Assembly: GCA_016789955.1 (NCBI GenBank)
Contig: JAEUPB010000077.1
Coordinates: 1 to 57,479 of the forward strand
Reading direction: 5' to 3'
Source of the DNA: Rubrivivax sp.
Lineage (GTDB): Bacteria; Pseudomonadota; Gammaproteobacteria; Burkholderiales; Burkholderiaceae_C
Length of the DNA: 57,479 nt
Shown: positions 1 through 13,120 of the stretch, in pieces
How positions within the stretch are numbered: the stretch's first letter is position 1
How the letters are laid out: each line of letters begins with the position of its first letter
Made by a program: the position numbers and the translations under genes
The notes under the pieces: model-generated
The model's input: the letters and a program-made list of their open reading frames with translations, nothing else
Database searches by the model: none
Told to the model about the DNA's origin: nothing

Positions 1-467
1 CGCTCGACGCCGGCGCGGTTGTACCAGCTGCGGTCGAACAGCACGATCTCGCCGCCCGCGGGCAGGTGCGGAACGTAGCGCTGGAAGTACCACTGGGTCT
101 TCTCGCGGTCGTTGGGCGCCGGCAGCGCGACGACGCGGCACACGCGCGGGTTCAGGCGCTGCGTGATGCGCTTGATCGCGCCGCCCTTGCCGGCGGCATC
201 GCGGCCCTCGAACAGGATCACCACCTTCTGCCGCGTGTGGGCGACCCAGTCCTGCAGCTTGACGAGCTCGCGCTGCAGCGTGAAGAGGTTGCGGAAGTAG
301 GAGAGGCGCGCGCCCCGCTCGCCGGCCTCCTCGGTGCCGGAGAGCGCGTCGTCGACCGAGCGGTCCTCGATCTCCATCTCCAGTTCCTCGTCGTAGCCGT
401 CGAGCAGATCGGCGCGGATGCGCGCGACGAGTGCGGCGGAGTCGGCGGGGTCGAATGGTCGGTCCAT
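1..467 (-). CDS. ppk2: PPK2-family polyphosphate kinase (3' end outside window)
   Basis: The visible 155 N-terminal residues carry the PPK2 fold signature: a P-loop GRDAAGKGG near residue 88 and the downstream Walker-B/lid region with [12 protein letters not shown] near residue 144. PPK2 enzymes transfer phosphate between polyphosphate and nucleotides; the subclass (kinase for ADP, GDP or AMP) cannot be told from this half. The start at 467 is the first Met of the conserved N-terminal helix region. The gene lies directly downstream of a glycerophosphodiesterase on the same strand, at the edge of a phosphate-starvation island, which fits a role in phosphate storage or recovery. Truncated only by the window boundary. 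Confidence 0.9.
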
Positions 468-1820: not shown

Positions 1821-1917
1821 GGTCCCGGTTCTCCTTGAGTGGCGCGGCCTGTGCCGCGGATCCGGGGAGGTTGTCGGCATTGCGCGTCAGCCGTGTGACG
1901 GCGCCGGGGGATTCGGG

Positions 1918-1935
1918 GCGTCACGGTGCTGTCAC
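1918..1935 (+). promoter_or_regulatory. Pho box upstream of phoX
   Basis: GCGTCAC-GGTG-CTGTCAC: two 7-base direct repeats with a 4-base spacer, the geometry of PhoB sites (consensus CTGTCAT-N4-CTGTCAT). A -10-like hexamer CAGCAT occupies offsets 11-16 after the box, which is the spacing of PhoB-activated promoters. Transcription would begin near 1959, some 22 bases before the first phoX start. Only a single half-site faces glpQ. Confidence 0.75.
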
Positions 1936-1981
1936 GGCATCGCACCAGCATCCTGCGGTATCACGACCGCACCCCGCACCG

Positions 1982-3892
1982 ATGGCCAAGGACTACTCCC
2001 GCATGGAGGACAGCAACCGCTCCTCCAACCCGAGCATTCATGACGTGTCGGCCCACCGGCGCACGGTGCTGCGCGGCGGCCTAGGGCTGGCCGTCGGCGG
2101 CCTGCTGGCCCCGTTGGCGGGCTGCGCCGGGCCGGGCAACGCCGCGACCGGGCCGCTGCTCGGCTTCAGGAGCGTGCCGGTCGGCACCGCCGACACCGTG
2201 GTGGTCCCCGAGGGCTACAGCGTGCAGGCCATCGCCCCGTGGGGAGACCCGGTCGGCCTCTCGGGAGAGGACCACGCCTTCCGCTTCGATGCCTCCAATA
2301 CGGCCGCCCATCAGGAAACCCAGATGGGCATGCACCACGACGGCATCCACTACTTCCGCCAGCCCGACATGCCTGCCGGCTCGGGCCTGCTGGTGATGAA
2401 CCACGAGTACGCCGACGACGGCCTGCTGCACCCCGACGGCATGGCCACCTGGAACGCGCAGAAGGTGCGCAAGGCGCAGGCGGCGCACGGCGTCTCGGTG
2501 ATCGAGGTCGAGGAGAAGAACGGGCGGTGGTCGGTCGTCAAGCCGAGCCCGTGGGCGCGGCGCATCACGGCCTACACGCCCATCGCCGTCAGCGGCCCGG
2601 CTGCGGGGCACGCCCTGCTGCGGACCGCGGCCGACCCGGGCGGCCGGCGCGTGCTCGGCACGCTGAACAACTGCGCCAGCGGCATCACGCCGTGGGGCAC
2701 CTACCTGACCTGCGAAGAGAACTTCATCTTCTATTTCAAGGGCCCCGACCAGCCCGACGCGCACCAGGCCCGCTGGGGTCTGCGCAAGGGCGACCCGGTG
2801 GGCTACCGCTGGCACGAGCACGACGAGCGCTTCGACGCAACCAAGCACCCGAACGAGATCAACCGTTTCGGGTGGGTGGTGGAGATCGATCCGTACGACG
2901 CGAGCAGCACGCCCGTCAAGCGCACCGCGCTCGGCCGCGCGGCCCACGAGGGGGCGACGATCGCCGTCACGCGCGACCAGCGCGCGGTCGTCTACATGGG
3001 CGAGGATGCGCGCTTCGAGTACATCTACAAGTTCGTCAGCCGCGACCGCATCCGGCCGGGCGGCGCGAAGGCCAATGCCGAACTGCTGGATCACGGCACG
3101 CTGTACGTGGCCCGCTTCGACGCCGACGGCAAGGGCCGCTGGCTGCCGCTGATCCATGGGGAGGGCCTGCTGACCACGGCACGCGGGTTCGCCGATCAGG
3201 GCGAGGTGCTCGTCAAGACCCGCCAGGCCAGCGACCTGCTCGGCGGCACGAAGATGGACCGTCCGGAATGGATCGCCATCGACAAGCAGGGCTGGGTCTA
3301 CTGCACGCTGACCAACAACAGCAACCGCGGCGGCACCAACCAGCCGGGTACGGACGCGGCCAATCCGCGCTCGAACAACACGATGGGGCACATCATCCGC
3401 TGGAAGGAGGCCGGTGACCACGACGGCCTCGCGTTCGAGTGGAACCACTTCGTGCTGGCCGGGGACGCGTCGCTCGCCCGGCCGGACGCCCGGGGCAACG
3501 TGAGAGGCGATGCCTTCGGGTGCCCTGACGGGCTCTGGACCGATGCCCGCGGTGTGCTGTGGATCCAGACCGACATGTCGACCAGCGCGATGGGCAAGGA
3601 CGACCTGCGCAACCTGGGCAACAACGCGATGCTCGCGGCCGACCCGCGCACCGGGGATATCCGGCGTTTCCTGGTCGGCCCCGTGGGGTGCGAGATCACC
3701 GGCGCCACCTCCACGCCGGATGGCCGCACGATGTTCATCAACATCCAGCATCCCGGCGAGAGCCCCAGCGAGCGCAGTGATCCGGCGCAGCCGCGGCGCA
3801 TCAGCAACTGGCCCGACTTCCGGCCCGACGGAAGACCGCGCAGCGCGACGGTCGCCATCCGCAAGAACGACGGTGGCGTGGTCGGTACCTGA
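1982..3892 (+). CDS. phoX: PhoX-type alkaline phosphatase (DUF839), Tat-exported
   Basis: About 636 residues with a twin-arginine signal: HRRTVLRGG at residues 25-33, followed by a hydrophobic stretch. The body matches PhoX/DUF839 beta-propeller phosphatases, including the conserved N-terminal GEDHAFRF, the TCEENF stretch, the metal-site region LNNCASGITPWGTYLTCEEN and the C-terminal GCEITGA...NIQHPGE. PhoX is a periplasmic Ca/Fe-dependent phosphomonoesterase that releases phosphate from organic esters. Start is ambiguous between 1982 and 2003; the latter has AAGGA ten bases upstream, and both keep the Tat motif. A Pho box lies at 1918-1935. The next gene begins 2 bases after its stop. Confidence 0.92.
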   Translation: MAKDYSRMEDSNRSSNPSIHDVSAHRRTVLRGGLGLAVGGLLAPLAGCAGPGNAATGPLLGFRSVPVGTADTVVVPEGYSVQAIAPWGDPVGLSGEDHAFRFDASNTAAHQETQMGMHHDGIHYFRQPDMPAGSGLLVMNHEYADDGLLHPDGMATWNAQKVRKAQAAHGVSVIEVEEKNGRWSVVKPSPWARRITAYTPIAVSGPAAGHALLRTAADPGGRRVLGTLNNCASGITPWGTYLTCEENFIFYFKGPDQPDAHQARWGLRKGDPVGYRWHEHDERFDATKHPNEINRFGWVVEIDPYDASSTPVKRTALGRAAHEGATIAVTRDQRAVVYMGEDARFEYIYKFVSRDRIRPGGAKANAELLDHGTLYVARFDADGKGRWLPLIHGEGLLTTARGFADQGEVLVKTRQASDLLGGTKMDRPEWIAIDKQGWVYCTLTNNSNRGGTNQPGTDAANPRSNNTMGHIIRWKEAGDHDGLAFEWNHFVLAGDASLARPDARGNVRGDAFGCPDGLWTDARGVLWIQTDMSTSAMGKDDLRNLGNNAMLAADPRTGDIRRFLVGPVGCEITGATSTPDGRTMFINIQHPGESPSERSDPAQPRRISNWPDFRPDGRPRSATVAIRKNDGGVVGT

Positions 3893-3894
3893 GG

Positions 3895-4929
3895 TTGACG
3901 GCGCGCACCCCGCTCCCGAACGCCCCCACCTACGGGTCCGACGAGCACGGCCTGATCTGCGGGTTCCGGTTCGTGCCCGGCCTCGGCGCGGAGCCGATTG
4001 AGCGACTGGGCACTGACGCTCGGCCCGGCGGCAGCGAGGCCACGCCGGGCTTCATGTGGCTGCACCTGAACCTCAGCCACGCCGGTGCGGAGAACTGGCT
4101 GCGCGCGCACGGCGGCCTGCCCGACGAGTTCTTCGAGGCGCTGCAGGACGTCTCGCGTTCCACCCGCATCGAGCGGCTCGACGACGCGCTGTTCGCGGTC
4201 ATCAACGACGTGACCTTCGACTTCACGTTCGACGCCAGCGACGTGGCCACGCTGTGGCTCTACGTGCAGGCCGATCGCGTGGTGAGCGCCCGCGCGCGGC
4301 CGCTGCGCGCGGTGGACCGCCTGCGCACGGCGATCCGGCGCGGCGACACGCTGGGCTCGAGCATCGAACTGCTCGACCACCTGCTGCGCGACCAGGCCGA
4401 CGAGCTGCAGCGCATCGTGCGGCGCGCGGCCGACCGCCTCGACGACATCGAGGACGAGGTGCTCGCAGGTCACCACGTGCGCCACACCATCGAGCTCGCG
4501 CGGCTGCGCCGACTGATGGTGCGACTGCGGCGGCTGCTCGCACCCGAGCCGAGCGCGCTGCAGCGCACGCTGGCCAAGCCGCCGAAGTGGGTGCCCGACG
4601 ACGGGCTGCAGGACCTGATGCGCGCCAGCGAGGAGTTCGCCCTCGTGCTGCGCGACGTCGGCGCGCTGCAGGAACGCATCAAGCTCATGCAGGACGAGGC
4701 GGCCACGCGCGTGCAGGAGGAGAACAGCCGCAGCCTGTACATGCTGACGATGGTCACGGTGCTGGCGCTGCCGATCAACCTCGTCGCGGGGCTGATGGGC
4801 ATGAACGTCGGTGGCGTCCCGTTCGGCGAGCAGCCGCACGGCTTCTGGTGGATGGTCGCGCTGATCGGCGCGCTCACCGGGCTGGTGGCGTGGCGCGTGG
4901 TGAAGCGCCTGCGGCCGCGAAGGCTCTGA
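3895..4929 (+). CDS. CorA/ZntB-family divalent cation transporter
   Basis: 344 residues: a long N-terminal cytoplasmic alpha/beta domain with extended helices (about 150-280), then two C-terminal membrane helices. The family signature GMN is at 302-304 at the end of the first helix. CorA relatives move Mg, Co or Ni, and ZntB moves Zn; GMN followed by a glycine-rich loop and the overall layout look ZntB-like, but substrate cannot be assigned. It starts with TTG only 2 bases after the phoX stop, so it should be cotranscribed and translationally coupled with phoX under the Pho box. That coupling suggests cation supply or balance during phosphate starvation, an inference from position only. Confidence 0.88.
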   Translation: MTARTPLPNAPTYGSDEHGLICGFRFVPGLGAEPIERLGTDARPGGSEATPGFMWLHLNLSHAGAENWLRAHGGLPDEFFEALQDVSRSTRIERLDDALFAVINDVTFDFTFDASDVATLWLYVQADRVVSARARPLRAVDRLRTAIRRGDTLGSSIELLDHLLRDQADELQRIVRRAADRLDDIEDEVLAGHHVRHTIELARLRRLMVRLRRLLAPEPSALQRTLAKPPKWVPDDGLQDLMRASEEFALVLRDVGALQERIKLMQDEAATRVQEENSRSLYMLTMVTVLALPINLVAGLMGMNVGGVPFGEQPHGFWWMVALIGALTGLVAWRVVKRLRPRRL

Positions 4930-4930
4930 G

Positions 4931-5740
4931 TCAGATGTAGCGCTTGCGCAGCCAGGCCGATGCCAGGTCGATCAGCGTCACCGTGACCGCAAGGATCACC
5001 AGCACCGCGCAGGTCTGCGCGTACTGGAAGCCGCGGATCACCTCGTAGAGCACGACGCCGATGCCGCCGGCGCCGACCATGCCCACCACCGAGGCCGAGC
5101 GCACGTTGGACTCGAAGCGGTACAGCGTGAAGCTCAGCCACAGCGGCAGCACCTGCGGCACGATGCCGTACAGCACCTCGACGAGCGACGGCGCGCCGGC
5201 GGCGCGGATACCTTCCACCGGGCGCGGGTCGATCGCCTCCACGGCTTCCGAGAACAGCTTGGCCAGCGTGCCGGTGGTGTGCACCGCCAGCGCCAGCACG
5301 CCGGCGAACGGGCCGAGGCCGACGGCCACGATGAACAGCATCGCGAACACCATCTCGTTGATGGCGCGGCAGGCGTCCATCAGCCGCCGCACCGGCTGGT
5401 GCAGCCACGGCGGCGCCACGTTGGACGCGCACAGCAGCCCCGCCGGCACCGCGGCGACCACGGCGAGCAGCGTGCCCCAGATCGCGATGTGCACCGTGAC
5501 CAGCATCTCGCGCGCGTAGATCCGCCAATCGCGGAAGTCCGGCGGGAAGAACTCGCGCGCATAGGTGCCGATGTTGACGGCGTCCTTCCACAGCGCCAGC
5601 GGCCGGATCTCGGCGCCCTGCCAGGCCCAGGCGAGCAGCAGCACCGCCGCCGCCCACGCCGCGTAGTGCAGCAGGCCGGGCCGTTCGGCCGCGGCGCGCT
5701 GGCGCAGCTGCGCCAGCGACGCGGCGCTGGCGGTCGTCAC
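4931..5740 (-). CDS. phnE: phosphonate/phosphate-ester ABC transporter permease PhnE
   Basis: 269 residues, integral membrane permease of the PhnE family. Several hydrophobic segments are visible (about 27-45, 75-100, 125-150, 205-260) and the cytoplasmic EAA-type loop reads [14 protein letters not shown] near residue 220. GTG start at 5740 overlaps the phnD stop (GTGA), giving translational coupling. Forms an importer with PhnD and PhnC. The gene ends head-to-head with the CorA-type gene, leaving one base between the stops. No C-P lyase genes are in the window, so the imported substrate could be phosphonate, phosphite or an organophosphate. Confidence 0.92.
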
Positions 5741-6687
5741 AGCTTCAGCGCGGCGAGCCTGGCGTCGATGTCCGCCAGCGCCTTTGCGCGGGCGGCCGCG
5801 TCGAGCGCCGCGTCGTTCTCGACCTTGCTGCGGTCCTTGAACAGCTCGAGCTGGCGGATCGGGATGAGCTGGTCGTTCGACGAGTCGCGGAAGCCGCCGT
5901 AGTTGTAGATGTTCTTCAGGATGGCCTTCTCCTGCGGGTCGGTCTTCGCGTAGCCCAGCACGAAGGCCTTCAGGCGCGACTTCACCGACGGGTCGAGGTC
6001 CTTGCGCCACACGAACGGATCGCTCGGGATCAGCGGGCTCTCCCAGATCACGCGAATCTGGCTCGCCAGCTCCGGCTTGCTGGCCTTGAGCTTCTCGATC
6101 TCTTCCGTGTTGTTGGTGGCCACGTCCACCTGCTTCGCGAGCACGGCCTGGATGTTGGCGCCGTGGCTGGCGCTGCGCACGCTCTTGAACGCGGTGCGGT
6201 GGTCGACCTTGTTCTTCGCGAACACGTAGAACGAGGGCACCAGGAAGCCCGACGTCGAGTTCGGATCGCCGATGCCGAAGGTGATCGCCTTCGAATTGCC
6301 CAGCACGTCGGCGAGCGTCCTGTACGGGCTGTCCTTGTGCGTGATCAGCACGCTCTGGTAGCCGAACGTGCCGTCGGCGAACATGACCTGCGCGAAGACC
6401 TCGCCGTTGGCGCGATCCACGGCTTCCATCGCGGCCTTGTTGCCGTACCACGCGACCTGCACCTTGTTGAAGCGCATCGCCTCGATGACACCCGCGTAGT
6501 CGGGCGCATAGAACGATTTCACCGTGATGCCGGTCTTCTTCTCCATGTCGCGGAAGAACGGCTCCCAGCGCTCGCGCTGGGTGGAGGCGGAGTCGGTGGC
6601 GATGACGCCGAAGTTGATCTCCTGGGCGTTGGCGACGGCGGCCGAGGCGGTCAGGACGAGGGCGGCGAGTCGGATCGTGCGTGTCAT
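5737..6687 (-). CDS. phnD: phosphonate ABC transporter periplasmic binding protein
   Basis: 316 residues with a cleavable signal peptide (1-21, ending ANA-Q). The mature part has PhnD-family hallmarks: [10 protein letters not shown] at the start of the first lobe, [12 protein letters not shown], the AWYGNKA ligand loop and [11 protein letters not shown], which binds the phosphonate oxygens in known structures. PhnD captures phosphonates or related phosphorus compounds and delivers them to PhnE. It lies between phnC (27-base gap) and phnE (4-base overlap), giving the order phnC-phnD-phnE under the Pho box before phnC. Confidence 0.93.
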
Positions 6688-6714
6688 GGCGGGAGTTGGA
6701 GGTGCATCGAGGGT

Positions 6715-7542
6715 TCAGGCGGCCAGCGACAGCGTCGGCAGCGGGATCGTGTCCGGGCCGCGGTCGTCGGCGAGGTCTTCGACGGACGCGCCGTAGAGCT
6801 GGCGCAGGAACTCGGGCGTCAGGCGTGCGCTCGGCCCGTCGTACACCAGCGCCCCGTCGCGCAGCGCGACGACGCGCGGGCAGTACTGGCGCGCCAGGCC
6901 GACGTCGTGCAGGCTGATGACCAGCGTGAGGCCGGCGCTGCGGTTCAGCGCGGCGAGCTGCTCCATCACGCGCCGCGTCGACTCCGGGTCCAGCGAGGCC
7001 ACCGGCTCGTCGGCCAGCAGCAGCCGCGCGCCCTGCACGAGCACACGGGCGATCGCGGCCCGCTGCTGCTGCCCGCCCGACAGCGTGGAAGCACGCTGGA
7101 AGGCCTGCTCCCCCAGACCGATGGACTTCAGCGCGTCCAGCGCGCGGGCACGCTGCTCGAGGGTGAAGCGCCCGGTCAGCGCGCGCCACAGCGGCACGTC
7201 GCTGGCATGGCCCATCAGCACATTGGTCAGCACCGACAGCCGGCCGACGAGGTTGAACTGCTGGAAGATGACCCCGATGCCGCGCCGTTGACGGCGGATG
7301 TCCGGCGCGAGCCGCCCGCCGCCCTGGAGTCGGTGCCCGGAGATCTCGATAACGTCGGTGGAAGCGTCTCCGGTCTCGAGCCCGCACAGGCACCGCAGCA
7401 GCGTCGACTTGCCCGAGCCCGAGGCGCCCAGCAACGCCACGCATTCGCCGCGGGCGATGTCCAGCGACAGGTCCTTCAGCGCGGCACTCGACCCATAGGT
7501 CTTGGTGAGTCCGCGGACGCGCACGACGGTGTCGTCGATCAT
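6715..7542 (-). CDS. phnC: phosphonate ABC transporter ATP-binding protein
   Basis: 275 residues. Walker [10 protein letters not shown] at 39-47, Q-loop IFQQFNL, ABC signature [13 protein letters not shown], Walker B LLLADEP and the H-loop ISLHDVG are all present, so it should be an active ATPase. The PhnC assignment rests on the family signature and on phnD/phnE following. The start at 7542 (MIDDTVV) begins the conserved domain; the upstream in-frame extension is unconserved and covers the promoter. There is no Shine-Dalgarno sequence, and the Pho box ends only 23 bases before the ATG, so the transcript may be leaderless. Confidence 0.93.
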
Positions 7543-7565
7543 GGCAAGGACGGTAGGCAGCGCCC

Positions 7566-7583
7566 GTGACGGCCGCGTGACAG
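7566..7583 (-). promoter_or_regulatory. Pho box upstream of phnCDE
   Basis: On the minus strand it reads CTGTCAC-GCGG-CCGTCAC, an exact 7-4-7 direct repeat. The hexamer TACCGT lies at offsets 11-16 after the box (T1, A2 and T6 of a -10 element), and 7 bases later comes the A of the phnC ATG. The initiation site should therefore fall at or beside the start codon. Confidence 0.78.
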
Positions 7584-7619
7584 CGTTGCGCCGCGCGAGG
7601 GCCGGCACAGGGCACCGGC

Positions 7620-7637
7620 GCTTCACGGCACCGTCAT
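7620..7637 (+). promoter_or_regulatory. Pho box upstream of the plcP-like gene
   Basis: GCTTCAC-GGCA-CCGTCAT, 7-4-7 spacing. The -10-like hexamer GAGCAT is at offsets 11-16 and the ATG at 7662 follows 8 bases later. This makes the alternative upstream ATG at 7644 unlikely, because it would lie inside the promoter. It sits back-to-back with the phnC box, making 7543-7661 a divergent Pho promoter. Confidence 0.7.
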
Positions 7638-7661
7638 GCAGCGATGCGAGCATGTCCGCCG

Positions 7662-8504
7662 ATGTCGAGCGACACCGACCCGCAGGACCCCCGCACGCTG
7701 CGCGTGCGCACCGTGTGGATCTCCGACCTGCACCTGGGCACGCCCGGCTGCCAGGCGATCGCGCTGCTGGAGTTCCTGCGCGACGTGGAGTGCCAGACGC
7801 TCTACCTCGTGGGCGACATCATCGACGGCTGGCAGCTCAGGCGCAGCTGGTACTGGCCGCAGGCGCACAACGACGTGGTGCAGAAGATCCTGCGCAAGGC
7901 GCGCAAGGGCACGCGGGTGGTGTTCGTGCCCGGCAATCACGACGAGTTCGCGCGCCGCTACGTCACGCACAACTTCGGCGGCGTCGACGTCGTCGACGAG
8001 TGCATGCATGTCACCGCCGACGGGCGCCGGCTGTGGATCACGCACGGCGACCTCTTCGACGGCGTCATCCAGTGCGCGCGCTGGCTGGCCTACGCCGGCG
8101 ACGTCGCGTACGAGACCGTGCTGAAGATCAACCGCTGGTTCAACCGTGTGCGGGCGCGCATGGGCCTGCCGTACTGGAGCCTGTCGCGCTATCTGAAGCT
8201 CAAGGTCAAGCGCGCGGTCAGCTACGTCAGCGACTTCGAGCGCGCGGTGGCGCACGAGGCGCGCAGGCGCGGCGCCGACGGCGTGGTGTGCGGACACATC
8301 CACCACGCCGAGCTGCGCACCATCGACGGCGTGCTCTACGCCAACGACGGCGACTGGGTCGAGAGCCTCACGGCCCTCGTCGAGCACCACGACGGACGCC
8401 TGGAGATCATCGACCGCAGCGGCTCCGCCGACATCCCGCAGGCTGCGGCTGCGCGACCCGTCACGGTGGCGCCGCAGCCCGCGGCGCTCGATCTGGTGTC
8501 CTGA
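7662..8504 (+). CDS. PlcP-type metallophosphoesterase (phospholipid phospholipase C of lipid remodelling)
   Basis: 280 residues, calcineurin-like phosphoesterase. Metal motifs are SDLHLG (D22, H24), VGDIIDGW (D52), GNHD (91-94), THGD (H128) and GHIHH (H212, H214). The family is routinely named UDP-2,3-diacylglucosamine hydrolase, but the LGTPGCQA segment, KSWYWPQ-like RSWYWPQAHNDVVQK and DWVES follow the PlcP group. In Sinorhizobium and marine bacteria PlcP cleaves phospholipids to diacylglycerol under phosphate limitation. The Pho box directly upstream and the GT4 glycosyltransferase in the same island support that reading over LpxH. No Shine-Dalgarno is visible at 7662; a leaderless start is likely. 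Confidence 0.8.
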   Translation: MSSDTDPQDPRTLRVRTVWISDLHLGTPGCQAIALLEFLRDVECQTLYLVGDIIDGWQLRRSWYWPQAHNDVVQKILRKARKGTRVVFVPGNHDEFARRYVTHNFGGVDVVDECMHVTADGRRLWITHGDLFDGVIQCARWLAYAGDVAYETVLKINRWFNRVRARMGLPYWSLSRYLKLKVKRAVSYVSDFERAVAHEARRRGADGVVCGHIHHAELRTIDGVLYANDGDWVESLTALVEHHDGRLEIIDRSGSADIPQAAAARPVTVAPQPAALDLVS

Positions 8505-8528
8505 GAACCTGGGCCCCGCCTGCCGCGC

Positions 8529-9404
8529 TCAGGCGCGCCGCAGCAGCGGTTCGCCCATCTTCAGCCGGTGGCCGGGAGCGATGCCCGGGGCCAGATCGAA
8601 GCCCGGCGGCGCGAACACCAGGATCGTCGAGCCGTGCTCGAACCAGCCCATCTCCTGCCCGCGCTGCAGCGCCGCGTCGCACGGCATCTCGTTCGGGCCC
8701 CTCCAGCGCAGGTGCAGCCGCACGTCCAGCGCGTGCAGCCGGATGCTGGCCACCAGCACCGCGGCCACGGGCACCAGCGCCAGCGGCGTGCCGTCGGCCA
8801 GCGCCAGGCGCAGCACGGCGCGCTCATTGCGGCAGAACAACCGCTCCACGCGCGCCAGCGCGATCGGGTTGACGTTCCAGGTGTCGCCGCTGAGGTAGGT
8901 CACGTGGCCCAGCCGGGCGTCAGCTGGCGCGTGGAAGCGGTGGTACATCGTCGACGTGAGCCGCAGCGTCACGTAGGTGCCGCCCTCGAATGGCGCGGGG
9001 TCCTGGCTGGGCCCGAACAACTCGCGCATCGTGTAGGGCATGCCCTTGGCCTGGAACACCCGGTCCTGCTGCACGGTGCCGAAGGCGCCGACGATGGCGT
9101 CGCACGGGCTCACGAGCACGCGCGGGTCGGGGTCCACCGGCCGGGCGCCCTCGACCAGTTCGCGCGTGAACACCTCGTGCAGGCTGCGCCAGCGCCGCGG
9201 CCGCGCGTCGCCAAGGTCGAGGTCGGCGAAGCGCCGCCACACGGCCAGCGAGAGCCGCGTGAGCCACGGGCTCTCGATGCGGCTCCAGTGTCCCATCAAA
9301 CGCGTCAGCGCGATGCGGGGGATGCGGTTGGTGAGCAGGAAGTTCAGGTCCTCCTGCTGGGCGATGCGGCGCAGCGCGCCGGCTTTCACGAGGGTGTCAA
9401 GCAT
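8529..9404 (-). CDS. psd: phosphatidylserine decarboxylase, variant HGST processing site
   Basis: 291 residues of the single-chain PSD proenzyme family. Conserved points are SPCDAIVG (catalytic Asp), YHRFHAPAD (catalytic His) and GWFEHGST with the self-cleaving serine at residue 259, which becomes the pyruvoyl group. Most bacterial enzymes have LGST at this place; here it is HGST. The enzyme makes phosphatidylethanolamine from phosphatidylserine at the inner membrane. The start at 9404 (MLDTLVKAG) avoids an unconserved proline-rich extension. The gene is convergent with plcP and divergent from the aminotransferase, and a Pho-box-like site overlaps its first codons. Whether it is the housekeeping enzyme or a paralogue cannot be told here. 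Confidence 0.85.
   Translation of the reverse strand: MLDTLVKAGALRRIAQQEDLNFLLTNRIPRIALTRLMGHWSRIESPWLTRLSLAVWRRFADLDLGDARPRRWRSLHEVFTRELVEGARPVDPDPRVLVSPCDAIVGAFGTVQQDRVFQAKGMPYTMRELFGPSQDPAPFEGGTYVTLRLTSTMYHRFHAPADARLGHVTYLSGDTWNVNPIALARVERLFCRNERAVLRLALADGTPLALVPVAAVLVASIRLHALDVRLHLRWRGPNEMPCDAALQRGQEMGWFEHGSTILVFAPPGFDLAPGIAPGHRLKMGEPLLRRA
9383..9400 (+). promoter_or_regulatory. possible Pho box before the aminotransferase, overlapping the psd start
   Basis: CTTTCAC-GAGG-GTGTCAA has the 7-4-7 repeat geometry, with weaker matches than the other boxes. Offsets 11-16 read TAGACC, which lacks the final T seen at the other sites. It lies within codons 2-8 of psd. If PhoB binds here it could activate the aminotransferase and hinder psd at the same time. 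Confidence 0.45.
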
Positions 9405-9448
9405 CTGCGGTAGACCGTCGGGGTTGCATGTTTGCGAGAGGTGGACAG

Positions 9449-11101
9449 ATGGATCAGGGTCTGGCGATGTCGGCCGCGGCACTCGGGCTGCTGGCGTGGG
9501 GCTTGCCGAGGGCGCATCGCCGCGTGCAGCTGTCGCGCGCCAAGCACCGCTCGCTGGCCGGCCATGCGCGGCTGGCGCAGCGCGTCGCCCGCATGATCCC
9601 GGGCTACGCCTACGGCGAGGACCGCTTCTTCGGCGTCGACGGTGCGCCCGACGACGTGCAGCAGCGCCGGCGCGAGGCCTTCCACCGGCTCGCCGAGCGG
9701 CTGCAGCAGCGCAGCCCTCGGGCCATCGCGCTGACCGCGGCGGCGCGCGAGGGACTGTCGGACCTGCAGTTCACCGGGCGCTACCGGGTGCCGTTCCAGT
9801 TCAGCCCGCTGGTGCAGGAGCACCTGAAGATCGGCAGCTTCGTCGCCGAGGCCTCCGGCGTGACGATCAAGGACCTCGACGGCAACGTGTTGCACGACCT
9901 GACCGGCAGCTACGGCGTCAACGTGTTCGGCGTGGACTTCTACAAGGAGTGCATCGACGAAGGCTGGGCCGAGGCCCGCCGCGTCGGGCCCATCCTCGGC
10001 AGCTACCTGCCGTGCGTGGCGTCGAACATCGAGCGGCTGAAGGCGATCTCGGGCCTGGACGAGGTGTCGTTCCACATGAGCGGCACCGAGGCCGTCATGC
10101 AGGCGGTGCGGCTGGCGCGCTACCACACGGGCCGCCGGCACGTGGTGCGCTTCGCCGGCGCCTACCACGGCTGGTGGGAGGACGTGCAGCCCGGACCCGG
10201 CAACCCGGTGCCGCCGCGCGAGACCTACACGCTGAAGGACATGGACGACCGCACGCTGGACGTGCTGCGCACGCGCCGCGACATCGCCTGCGTGCTCGTC
10301 AACCCGCTGCAGGCCCTGCACCCGAACATCAGCGCGCCGGGCGACTCCGCGCTCGTGGACAGCAGCCGCCGAGCCGGCATCGACCGCGTCGCCTACGGCC
10401 GCTGGCTGCGCGCGCTGCGCGACGTGTGCGACGAGCGCGGCATCGTGCTGATCCTCGACGAGATCTTCGTCGGCTTCCGCATCGCGCGCGGCGGCGCGCA
10501 GGAGTACTTCGGCGTGAAGGCCGACATGGTGACCTACGGCAAGACGGTGGCCGGCGGGCTGCCGGTGGGCGTGGTGTGCGGCCGGCGCGAGCTGATGAAG
10601 CGCTACCGCGAGCACCGCCCCGCCGACATCTGCTTCGCGCGCGGCACCTTCAACGCGCACCCGGCGGTGATGGCGTCGATGCACGCCTTCCTGCAGCGGC
10701 TGGAGCGCCCGTACGTGCGCGAGCTGTACCAAGGCCTCGACGCGCGCTGGGACGCGCGCGCCGGGCGCTTCAACGCCGCGCTCGCCGAGGCCGGCGTGCC
10801 GCTGCGCGTCGCGCACCTGTCCAGCATCTGGACGGTGCTGTTCGACGTGCCGTCGCGCTACAACTGGATGCTGCAGTTCTACCTCCGTGCGCATGGCCTG
10901 GCGCTGTCGTGGGTGGGCAGCGGCCGCATCGTCTTCAGCCTCAACTACACCGACGACGACATGGACGCGGTGCTGCGCAAGTTCATCGCCGCGGGACAGG
11001 AGATGCAGGCCGACGGCTGGTGGTGGCACGACGCGGCGGCTTCCAACCGATCGATCCGCCGCGGCCTGCTGAAGGAGATGCTGCTGCGCCGCCTGGGCTG
11101 A
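9449..11101 (+). CDS. PLP-dependent class III aminotransferase, glutamate-1-semialdehyde aminotransferase-like, function unknown
   Basis: 550 residues, about 120 longer than HemL. The extra part is an N-terminal region of about 110 residues that begins with a short hydrophobic segment (8-20). The catalytic core is intact: SGTEAVMQA (211-219) for the phosphate, AYHGWWED (238-245), LILDEIF with Asp337 pairing the PLP nitrogen, and Lys365 in VTYGKTVAGGLPVG forming the Schiff base. The start at 9449 has AGAGGTGGAC just upstream; an ATG at 9428 is possible. HemL itself is unlikely given the length and the lipid-gene surroundings. A role in making an amino-containing head group or sugar during phosphate starvation is a guess from context. 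Confidence 0.8.
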   Translation: MDQGLAMSAAALGLLAWGLPRAHRRVQLSRAKHRSLAGHARLAQRVARMIPGYAYGEDRFFGVDGAPDDVQQRRREAFHRLAERLQQRSPRAIALTAAAREGLSDLQFTGRYRVPFQFSPLVQEHLKIGSFVAEASGVTIKDLDGNVLHDLTGSYGVNVFGVDFYKECIDEGWAEARRVGPILGSYLPCVASNIERLKAISGLDEVSFHMSGTEAVMQAVRLARYHTGRRHVVRFAGAYHGWWEDVQPGPGNPVPPRETYTLKDMDDRTLDVLRTRRDIACVLVNPLQALHPNISAPGDSALVDSSRRAGIDRVAYGRWLRALRDVCDERGIVLILDEIFVGFRIARGGAQEYFGVKADMVTYGKTVAGGLPVGVVCGRRELMKRYREHRPADICFARGTFNAHPAVMASMHAFLQRLERPYVRELYQGLDARWDARAGRFNAALAEAGVPLRVAHLSSIWTVLFDVPSRYNWMLQFYLRAHGLALSWVGSGRIVFSLNYTDDDMDAVLRKFIAAGQEMQADGWWWHDAAASNRSIRRGLLKEMLLRRLG

Positions 11102-11114
11102 GCATCGCCCCTGG

Positions 11115-11139
11115 GCGGCGCCGCGTGCTGCGGCGCCGC
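11115..11139. terminator. GC-only hairpin between convergent genes
   Basis: Two copies of GCGGCGCCGC flank the 5-base loop GTGCT, giving a perfect 10-bp stem between the aminotransferase stop and the Mpo1-like stop. There is no T tract on either side, so a bidirectional transcription barrier is only probable. Confidence 0.45.
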
Positions 11140-11149
11140 GGCGTGCCGA

Positions 11150-11758
11150 TCAGCGGCGTTGCACGTGGTGCATCGGGTCCAGCCGTTCGCCGCGCAGCAG
11201 CGCCAGCGGGGCCTTGTGGTACAGGATGATGTCGTGCACGGGGTCGGTGAGGATCTTGCCGAGCCAGGCCAGCGCCGGCACCGCGCCGTCGCGCAGCCAC
11301 AGCTGACCGACGCGGAACGCGAGGCCCGACACGCCCAGTGCCAGCCACGCGATGCCGGTGTCGTGCACGAAGCCGGGCAGGTCCCGCGCGGGCTCGATCA
11401 AGCCGCCCAGCGACGGCGACAGCCACAGGACGAGCGGGATGCCGGCCCACACGGACAGCAGCACGATCTTGCGCTGGATGTTGTAGCCGACCTTCACCTC
11501 CTCCTTGTACTCGTCGCTCACGCCGTTGACGTGGTCGTAGCCGCGCGGCTCGAAGAAGAAGTGGCCGGCCTGCCGCGTCGTCATCGACACGCACCAGCCG
11601 ACGATGGCCGCGATCGCCGGATCGACGAACAGCAGCGCGTAGGCCACGAGGAAGCTGATCGCGCTGATCAGGTGCAGCGTCTGGTTGATGCGGCTCTGGT
11701 GGTAGTAGCGGTGGTCGTCCCAGCGCTGCGTGCTCAGGGTCTCGAGGTATCGGTTCAC
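11150..11758 (-). CDS. Mpo1/DUF962-like multi-pass membrane protein
   Basis: 202 residues with about four hydrophobic segments. The N-terminal YHQSRINQTLH and TRQAGHFFFEPRGYD resemble the conserved His-containing blocks of the Mpo1 (DUF962) family; yeast Mpo1 is an Fe-dependent dioxygenase acting in alpha-oxidation of 2-hydroxy fatty acids. Similarity is judged by motif only. GTG start at 11758 with GAGAGGA upstream at correct spacing. It has its own Pho box at 11813-11830 and is divergent from the glycosyltransferase, so it probably acts on membrane lipids during phosphate limitation. Other readings, such as a fatty-acid-hydroxylase-like protein, are possible. Confidence 0.68.
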   Translation of the reverse strand: MNRYLETLSTQRWDDHRYYHQSRINQTLHLISAISFLVAYALLFVDPAIAAIVGWCVSMTTRQAGHFFFEPRGYDHVNGVSDEYKEEVKVGYNIQRKIVLLSVWAGIPLVLWLSPSLGGLIEPARDLPGFVHDTGIAWLALGVSGLAFRVGQLWLRDGAVPALAWLGKILTDPVHDIILYHKAPLALLRGERLDPMHHVQRR

Positions 11759-11812
11759 GGACGGTCCTCTCTCGGGGTGGGGAAGCGCATGACGCGATCG
11801 TGTCGGTGATGC

Positions 11813-11830
11813 ATGAAAGTGCCGTGACGG
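11813..11830 (-). promoter_or_regulatory. Pho box upstream of the Mpo1-like gene
   Basis: Minus strand: CCGTCAC-GGCA-CTTTCAT, 7-4-7 repeats. The hexamer CACGAT is at offsets 11-16, fitting a -10 element. The GTG start is 54 bases beyond the box and has a Shine-Dalgarno sequence, so this transcript should have a leader of about 30 bases. Confidence 0.68.
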
Positions 11831-11833
11831 CGG

Positions 11834-11851
11834 CTGTCATCGCTTTGTCGA
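11834..11851 (+). promoter_or_regulatory. Pho box upstream of the GT4 glycosyltransferase
   Basis: CTGTCAT-CGCT-TTGTCGA; the first repeat is a perfect consensus match. GACGAT occupies offsets 11-16 and the ATG at 11876 follows 8 bases later, the same layout as for plcP. The box lies only 3 bases from the oppositely oriented box of the Mpo1-like gene. Confidence 0.72.
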
Positions 11852-11875
11852 ACAGCGCGACGACGATGGCGGGCC

Positions 11876-13120
11876 ATGCACACCCTCGACGCCCCTGCCG
11901 ACCTCCAGATCGACGAGATCCCGGCGCGCCGCCGGTCCCTGCGCGTGGCCTACGTGACGGAGACCTACCCGCCGGAAGTGAACGGCGTGGCCACCACGAC
12001 GGCGAAGTTCGTCGAGGGGCTGCACCGGCGGCAGCACGACGTGCAGCTGGTGCGGCCGCGCCAGACGCGCGCCGACGAAGCCGGCGCCGGGCCGCGGCTG
12101 CACGAGGTGCTGATGCGCGGGCTGCCGATCCCGAACTACCCGCACCTGCGCATGGGCGTGCCGTCCAAGCGCGCGCTGGTGAAGCTGTGGTCGCTGCGCC
12201 GACCGGACGTGGTGCACGTCGCCACCGAAGGACCCCTCGGCTGGTCGGCGCTGCAGGCCGCCACGCACCTGCGGGTCCCCGTGACGTCGGACTTCCGCAC
12301 CAACTTCCATGCGTACAGCCGGCACTACGGCATCGGCTGGCTGCACCGGCCCATCATGGCCTACCTGCGCAAGTTCCATAACCGCTGCGCCTGCACGATG
12401 GTCCCCACCGAGACGCTCAAGCGCGAGCTCGAGCGGGCGGGCTTCGAGCGGCTGCAGGTGGTGCAGCGCGGCGTGGACACCGACCGCTACGGTCCCACGC
12501 GACGCAGCGACGAGCTGCGCCGCGGTTGGGGTGCAGGCCCCGACGACGTGGTGGTCGGGATCGTTGGGCGGCTGGCGGCGGAGAAGAACCTCGGTCTGGT
12601 GGTCGACGCGTTCCGCGAGATTCGCCGCACCGTGGCCGCGGCGCGGCTGGTGTTCATCGGCGACGGGCCGCTGCGGGCCGATCTACAGGCCGGCTGCGCC
12701 GACGCCGTGTTCACGGGCAACCGCAGCGGCCTCGACCTGGCTGCGCACTACGCGTCGCTGGACCTGTTCCTGTTCCCGAGCCTCACCGAGACCTTCGGCA
12801 ACGTCACGGTGGAGGCGCTGGCCAGCGGCCTGCCCGTGGTGGCCTACGACCACGCGGCCGCCGGGCAGCTGATCCGCTCGGGCACCAACGGGCTGCTGTG
12901 TACGCCTGGCGACACGGCCGGGTTCATCGAGGCCGCCATCGAGCTCGCGGAGCGGGCCCCGTTGCGGGCCGCGATCGCGGCGCAGGCCCGCGCGACGGCC
13001 CTCGGGCTCGGATGGGACGCCGTGGTCGCGCGCTTCGAGCAGCACCTGGCCGACGCCACGGCCCAGGCCTTGCCGGCGCGCCCCCTCTACGCGCTGCGGC
13101 GCACCCGCCCGGCGGCCTGA
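11876..13120 (+). CDS. GT4-family glycosyltransferase, probable lipid glycosyltransferase of phosphate-starvation remodelling
   Basis: 414 residues with two Rossmann-like domains. The N-terminal acceptor domain starts VAYVTETYPPEVNGVATT, the nucleotide-sugar domain has GIVGRLAAEKN, and PSLTETFGNVTVEALASGLPVV supplies the E-x7-E motif of retaining GT4 enzymes. GT4 relatives near plcP genes (Agt, SqdX-like, MgtA-like) glycosylate diacylglycerol to make phosphorus-free glycolipids. Here the gene is about 3.4 kb from plcP but carries a near-identical Pho promoter. The sugar donor and product are unknown. There is no Shine-Dalgarno sequence, and the Pho box ends 24 bases before the ATG, so leaderless translation is likely. 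Confidence 0.82.
   Translation: MHTLDAPADLQIDEIPARRRSLRVAYVTETYPPEVNGVATTTAKFVEGLHRRQHDVQLVRPRQTRADEAGAGPRLHEVLMRGLPIPNYPHLRMGVPSKRALVKLWSLRRPDVVHVATEGPLGWSALQAATHLRVPVTSDFRTNFHAYSRHYGIGWLHRPIMAYLRKFHNRCACTMVPTETLKRELERAGFERLQVVQRGVDTDRYGPTRRSDELRRGWGAGPDDVVVGIVGRLAAEKNLGLVVDAFREIRRTVAAARLVFIGDGPLRADLQAGCADAVFTGNRSGLDLAAHYASLDLFLFPSLTETFGNVTVEALASGLPVVAYDHAAAGQLIRSGTNGLLCTPGDTAGFIEAAIELAERAPLRAAIAAQARATALGLGWDAVVARFEQHLADATAQALPARPLYALRRTRPAA

Follow-up and report, generated by a model that had tools for sequence, protein, structure and literature searches.

The 57,479-nucleotide stretch of contig JAEUPB010000077.1 of Rubrivivax sp. (the window, by which we mean the whole stretch of DNA analysed) carries an island of phosphate (Pho) genes in which a 7-4-7 direct repeat, the Pho box, is found with a -10 hexamer upstream of phoX, phnC, a plcP-like gene, an Mpo1-like gene (mpo1) and a gene for a GT4 glycosyltransferase. 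Comparison of these sites with their orthologues, and with those of ppk1 and pstS, makes it likely that they are PhoB-activated sigma-70 promoters, at four of which (the plcP-like gene, GT4, phnC and ppk1) the mRNAs would be leaderless, while those of phoX, the Mpo1-like gene and pstS would carry a leader. An earlier note on this DNA had described the boxes and their -10 hexamers but missed the leaderless layout; the distance to the start codon is the new point.

Start codons close to the -10

Distances were counted over promoters with a site, loci without one being excluded from the denominators. An in-frame ATG lies 4-11 nucleotides (nt) past the -10 in 28/28 promoters of GT4 (at 6-8 nt), 25/27 of ppk1 (17 of them at 6 nt), 15/16 of phnC (6-8 nt) and 21/26 of plcP (6-10 nt). 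Pooled over the four genes, 89 promoters have such an ATG, out of 97 that have a site and 108 loci altogether, and no promoter had a near GTG or TTG alone. For 79 of these 89 the first near start is an ATG at a distance of 6-8 nt, which places the end of the box 22-24 nt before the ATG. Among the other Pho genes a near ATG is rare (pstS 1/26, mpo1 0/21, phoX 0/7), and their transcripts are predicted to be mostly leadered; the start of pstS lies 30-41 nt past the -10 in 21/26 promoters, with a Shine-Dalgarno sequence present on average (-4.5 vs. -2.0 kcal/mol). At the near-ATG starts mean hybridisation with the 16S tail was only -0.5 to -2.5 kcal/mol, weaker than in same-base shuffles for all four genes.

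It is improbable that the real start codons of ppk1 and phnC are much further downstream, because the match to the family models already begins at residue 6-9 in ppk1 and at residue 4-7 in phnC (there for the best two models). In Sinorhizobium meliloti, according to the available part of PMC3616915, 16 of 33 PhoB boxes precede the mapped transcription start site by 22 to 25 nt, and the leaderless mRNAs all start with AUG. Since the box-to-ATG distance found here fits this box-to-start-site distance, the simplest reading is that +1 coincides with the A of the ATG or precedes it by a few bases. We infer that GT4, phnC, plcP and ppk1 give PhoB-activated leaderless mRNAs. At a background of 4.67%, the share of leaderless primary start sites reported for Cupriavidus metallidurans in the accessible part of PMC7563307, the chance of at least four leaderless cases among eight Pho promoters would be roughly 3e-4; the eight were not randomly drawn.

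The taxonomic range of the layout was followed at ppk1. Among 80 named loci, 34 had the near-ATG layout, 32 had a box (≤3 mismatches) without the layout and 14 had neither; four further loci had TAnnnT 6-8 nt before an ATG and no passing box. The records with the layout are titled, among others, Rubrivivax, Leptothrix, Caldimonas, Mitsuaria, Pelomonas, Roseateles, Piscinibacter, Rhizobacter, Methylibium and Ideonella, and two of the 34 loci, one of them titled Limnohabitans, have a GA-type -10. No Aquabacterium, Variovorax or Polaromonas record among the 80 named loci showed the layout. At ppk1 it is thus not family-wide in Sphaerotilaceae, the NCBI family to which Aquabacterium also belongs.

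Box and -10 in the window and in related genomes

All five boxes of the earlier note were recovered at their positions and strands, with the hexamers at offsets 11-16 after the box that are given in Table 1. Scored against CTGTCAY-N4-CTGTCAY, they have one (phnC), two (phoX and mpo1), three (GT4) and four (plcP) mismatches, so that the plcP and GT4 boxes appear weak when taken alone. On both strands of the window there are three matches with ≤2 mismatches, all among these five. Allowing ≤3 gives nine, of which four are from the list, all with NANNRT, a hexamer present in 0/5 of the rest; with ≤4 mismatches there are 48, and NANNRT stands at offsets 11-16 in 5/5 of those listed and 0/43 of the others. 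Box and -10 together are far from chance, despite the weak plcP and GT4 boxes, because NANNRT occurs in exactly the five of 48 matches, and in only 2/303 of those with exactly 5 mismatches. The hexamer rule itself, NANN(A/G)T, holds at all five sites, but its A or G at the fifth position is not general (C in 25/27 of ppk1); the only -10 bases that generalise are A at offset 12 (A12) and T at offset 16 (T16).

Orthologues were taken from genomes of the same genus, with at most the best 30 loci per gene; the plcP set includes four loci from other families of the order (L038, L058, L059 and L060). For phnC 18 loci were used, leaving out L109-L120 (other ABC transporters, 39-48% identity), for pstS 28, excluding L239 and L240 (37-39% identity), and for mpo1 29 of 30, L166 being without enough upstream DNA. 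In the 240 nt around each start (200 upstream and 40 inside the gene), a box with ≤4 mismatches plus A12 and T16 at the exact offset was found in 26/30 loci of plcP, 28/30 of GT4, 16/18 of phnC and 21/29 of mpo1, and also in two genes that the earlier note had not listed, ppk1 (27/30) and pstS (26/28). When the -10 was slid from -6 to +8 (14 other shifts) the counts never exceeded 6, and dinucleotide shuffles gave at most 1.1%. A stricter choice, in which boxes were picked by mismatches alone (128 with ≤3 in the six genes), had A at offset 12 in 80% and T at offset 16 in 79%, with no other position of offsets 1-22 above 35% A or 48% T; both bases were present in 23/27 boxes of GT4, 24/25 of pstS, 21/24 of ppk1 and 14/15 of phnC. 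Spacer bases are mostly unconserved compared with box and -10, the exceptions being short runs that adjoin the -10 on its upstream side in ppk1 and pstS (sites were tabulated for this only if they had A12 and T16, and selection therefore accounts for part of the -10 values). These counts argue that six genes have canonical PhoB-type promoters which are conserved within the genus, and they support the weak plcP and GT4 sites too.

Table 1. Pho boxes, -10 hexamers and genes of the island (positions in the window).
Feature	Position	Strand	Details
Possible weak Pho promoter, GDPD gene (transcribed divergently from phoX)	1868..1901	-	CCGTCAC ACGG CTGACGC, -10 CAACCT
Pho box of phoX	1918..1935	+	GCGTCAC GGTG CTGTCAC
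-10 of phoX, CAGCAT	1946..1951	+	ATG at 1982, 30 nt further; leader
phoX, alkaline phosphatase PhoX	1982..3892	+	PF05787, 7.1e-165
phnC-phnD-phnE, phosphonate/phosphate ABC transporter	4931..7542	-	TIGR02315, TIGR03431, TIGR01097 above cut-offs
-10 of phnC, TACCGT	7550..7555	-	ATG at 7542 after 7 nt; predicted leaderless
Pho box of phnC	7566..7583	-	CTGTCAC GCGG CCGTCAC
Pho box of plcP-like gene	7620..7637	+	GCTTCAC GGCA CCGTCAT, 4 mismatches
-10 of plcP-like gene, GAGCAT	7648..7653	+	ATG at 7662 after 8 nt; predicted leaderless
Metallophosphoesterase, PlcP-like	7662..8504	+	PF00149, 2.7e-13; named from context
Sixth candidate Pho box, upstream of aminotransferase	9383..9400	+	CTTTCAC GAGG GTGTCAA; not in the earlier note
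TAGACC in -10 position of aminotransferase box	9411-9416	+	T and A, no final T
Class III aminotransferase, glutamate-semialdehyde-mutase-like	9428..11101	+	PF00202, 9.3e-31
Mpo1-like membrane protein	11150..11758	-	PF06127, 22.6 bits, under cut-off of 24
-10 of Mpo1-like gene, CACGAT	11797..11802	-	GTG start at 11758 after 38 nt; leader
Pho box of Mpo1-like gene	11813..11830	-	CCGTCAC GGCA CTTTCAT
Pho box of GT4 gene	11834..11851	+	CTGTCAT CGCT TTGTCGA; back to back with Mpo1-like box
-10 of GT4 gene, GACGAT	11862..11867	+	ATG at 11876 after 8 nt; predicted leaderless
GT4 glycosyltransferase, named Agt-like from context	11876..13120	+	PF13692/PF13439

Of the proteins encoded downstream, PhoX, PhnC, PhnD and PhnE are above their family cut-offs; the PlcP-like and GT4 proteins have only superfamily-level matches: no NCBIfam model is above its cut-off for the former, and for the latter the best NCBIfam models are glycolipid synthases, both under cut-off. 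The aminotransferase, the divergent Mpo1-like gene and GT4 (window 9428-13120) are kept together in the compared relatives. At the edge of the window, which cuts it, there is also a gene for a PPK2-type polyphosphate kinase (3-467, minus strand), adjoining the GDPD and phoX genes.

The box upstream of the aminotransferase is a candidate sixth promoter of the island. Its orthologues have a box with ≤4 mismatches in 27/30 loci, vs. 12.5% of shuffles, and in 20 of the loci hexamers of the types TACAAG or TAGACC are in the correct place without the final T; an in-frame ATG lies 4-11 nt past this -10 in 8/20. The region upstream of the GDPD gene may hold a further Pho promoter, as yet unproven; among the 30 phoX loci the start of a GDPD gene was found in one, that of the window itself, leaving no relative to compare.

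It had been expected that the motif would also be found before pst genes, and it was, in relatives, as the pstS loci show. Its use for finding the whole regulon stood only in part. The box alone was dropped as a genome-wide finder, having no excess in the own genome (352 matches with ≤3 mismatches vs. 368 in the reversed control), whereas requiring A12 and T16 as well, with the mismatches limited to ≤3 in total, gives 21 matches vs. 8; at that cut plcP and the aminotransferase go unnoticed. The 21 comprise five sites in the window, ppk1 and 15 more. At ten of these 15 an open reading frame spans the site, in GC-rich DNA a weak sign of a gene, and at five there is none; one of the five, at a Na/Pi cotransporter, is not conserved. 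It is the comparison of orthologues that makes a matrix of these sites usable.

Two individual matches in this genome deserve mention. A box with one mismatch followed by AACAGT is located ahead of an ArsR-like (HTH_20) gene (G000:C47:41973-42006, L351), without an open frame across the site; a link between arsenic and phosphate is possible there. The Na/Pi cotransporter, which has a PhoU domain, has a box with one mismatch touching its start codon (L362, G000:C42:18500-18517). Repression of this gene by PhoB was considered and discarded: among the 17 loci listed, the own one included, no other has a box at that place, and it was taken to be due to chance or private.

Mechanism, promoter classes and alternative readings

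The mechanism that we propose would operate as follows, its first steps being modelled on Escherichia coli. During phosphate starvation, phosphorylated PhoB bound to the two 7-base repeats would replace the -35 element and keep RNA polymerase at the -10. Box, -10 and the spacing of exactly 10 bases between them are observed here, and the conserved bases of the -10 are A at -11 and T at -7. In the plcP-like gene, GT4, phnC and ppk1 the start codon is usually 6-10 bases past the -10, so that the predicted +1 is the A of the ATG or lies a few bases ahead of it; such mRNAs would be leaderless and presumably read by a route independent of Shine-Dalgarno sequences. In phoX, the Mpo1-like gene and pstS the same promoter would be followed by an ordinary leader. 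That the regulator is PhoB is inferred from the relatives: a PhoB above cut-off was found in 22 of the 26 genomes searched (the own 79.6%-complete assembly is not one of the 22), and the PhoB of the relative L372 matches 1gxp, a solved structure of the PhoB DNA-binding domain, at 3.1e-33.

The -10 falls into gene-specific classes. The base at -12 is C or G in 80/82 promoters of plcP, GT4, mpo1 and phoX, and T in 66/69 promoters of phnC, ppk1 and pstS. The aminotransferase was left out of these counts, and extending the rule to it was given up, since T at -12 had been part of the selection and its 20/20 would be circular. This base probably sets promoter strength, which suggests, as a hypothesis, two strengths of PhoB promoter, a weaker one for lipid replacement and phosphatase and a stronger one for uptake and polyphosphate. 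An RpoH-like reading of CACCAT was also abandoned: the second base, A, is kept in 28/28 GT4 sites, although A at this position had been part of the selection. A wider proposal, which we hold tentatively and think somewhat doubtful, is that much of the Sphaerotilaceae (Rubrivivax and its neighbours, not Aquabacterium) translates part of its phosphate-starvation response from leaderless mRNAs. PhoB would set +1 on the start codon of phnC, plcP, GT4 and ppk1, and the -12 base would split a strong class (uptake, polyphosphate) from a weak one (phosphatase, lipid replacement); the genes would then respond in a fixed order, and translation would proceed in a way that suits starved cells.

Several observations weigh against PhoB-activated promoters with this split between leaderless and leadered mRNAs. 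The orthologues are related, so the counts are of non-independent events. In the four genes GT4, phnC, plcP and ppk1, 11/108 loci lack any site and 8/97 promoters with a site lack a near ATG, and a near GTG or TTG without ATG turns up by chance in pstS (4), mpo1 (2) and phoX (1). The stricter choice of boxes gives A12 and T16 in only 7/21 of mpo1 and 10/16 of plcP, and the aminotransferase, without T at offset 16, has the pair in 0/30 loci. For phoX, box plus A12 and T16 was found in 7/30 loci only; these seven are the ones with at least 77% identity, and the other 23 (62-69%), with none, may represent another copy (a second PhoX, 65% identical, is encoded in the own genome at G000:C35:104260-106179). 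Finally, the own assembly (79.6% complete) gave neither a pstS match nor a PhoB above the family cut-off.

There are three other possible explanations. One would be that these are ordinary leadered PhoB promoters, with transcription starting further upstream, or with a later start codon served by a ribosome site. The five of 26 plcP promoters without a near ATG and the differing lengths of the N-terminal extensions of plcP would fit, but the ppk1 and phnC models align so close to the N-terminus that a later start could hardly be accommodated, the near start is ATG in 89/97 and never GTG or TTG only, as in the all-AUG leaderless mRNAs of S. meliloti, and the distance from box to ATG matches that from box to start site in the same study. 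We regard this alternative as unlikely, if the least so of the three. Another is that a different OmpR-type regulator binds the boxes, or that a different sigma factor reads the CANCAT-type -10. Six of the 26 genomes (L397, L398, L399, L400, L401 and G002:C338) do have two PhoB-family proteins above cut-off, on different contigs, and a -10 of the type C/G-A-N-N-A-T is unlike TATAAT; against this, box and spacing are as at phoA, phoB and pstS of E. coli, phosphate genes lie downstream, and A and T are kept at -11 and -7, which makes such a regulator or sigma factor rather improbable. The last, chance matches of a degenerate motif picked by eye in intergenic DNA, could appeal to the lack of excess of the box alone and to the four mismatches of plcP. 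It is largely contradicted by conservation at the exact offset in six gene families, reached by ≤1.1% of shuffles, with spacers mostly diverged, and we give it hardly any credence.

Significance and relation to known systems

If PhoB-activated leaderless promoters are confirmed, they would provide a conserved, activator-controlled set of leaderless mRNAs in free-living betaproteobacteria, with the leadered Pho genes of the same cells as built-in controls, and why and when bacteria use leaderless translation would become testable by changing phosphate. The analysis also provides a footprint-checked rule by which Pho genes can be recognised in GC-rich genomes, the box by itself having had no power here, and the layout is of use in assigning their start codons. 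Literature on leaderless transcripts combined with the Pho regulon, PhoB, phosphate starvation or polyphosphate kinase, in a partial library of titles and starts of abstracts with unreadable supplementary start-site tables, yielded no report of proteobacterial leaderless Pho mRNAs.

The Pho box architecture itself is textbook, and leaderless mRNAs in the order, as well as PlcP/Agt genes with predicted Pho boxes, are already known. The earlier note had considered the promoter lineage-specific, which it is not: phoA, phoB and pstS of E. coli K-12 MG1655 have the same 7-4-7 repeat, the same 10 nt to the -10, and A12 and T16 (for pstS at its gene-proximal box, with 2 mismatches). Strict spacing of the PhoB box relative to the core promoter is also stated in the available text of an mBio study of PhoB (PMC10294691). 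However, the starts of these three genes are 46-50 nt past the -10, compared with mostly 6-10 nt in the four genes here, and E. coli ppk and phnC have no such site within 250 nt.

In the PlcP-Agt lipid remodelling systems of Phaeobacter, SAR11 and Pseudomonas aeruginosa, as far as the accessible parts of PMC4796936 and PMC8528852 describe them, the phosphoesterase and glycosyltransferase genes are close together and have predicted Pho boxes, as they do here. Unlike in those systems, the plcP-like gene and GT4 each have their own promoter, the aminotransferase and the divergent Mpo1-like gene lie between them, and the enzymes are named from context. Leaderless mRNAs of Burkholderiales likewise start at or near the start codon; in Burkholderia cenocepacia transcription begins on the start codon itself in 72 genes and within 10 nt of it in 42, 24 of these being tRNAs (PMC4603805, in the part available), and the accounts of this order, as far as accessible, stress transcriptional regulators and name no Pho genes. 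A phosphate gene that is likewise leaderless is phoR of Streptomyces, transcribed from the A of its ATG according to the available part of PMC6283541, although there the system is the actinobacterial PhoR-PhoP.

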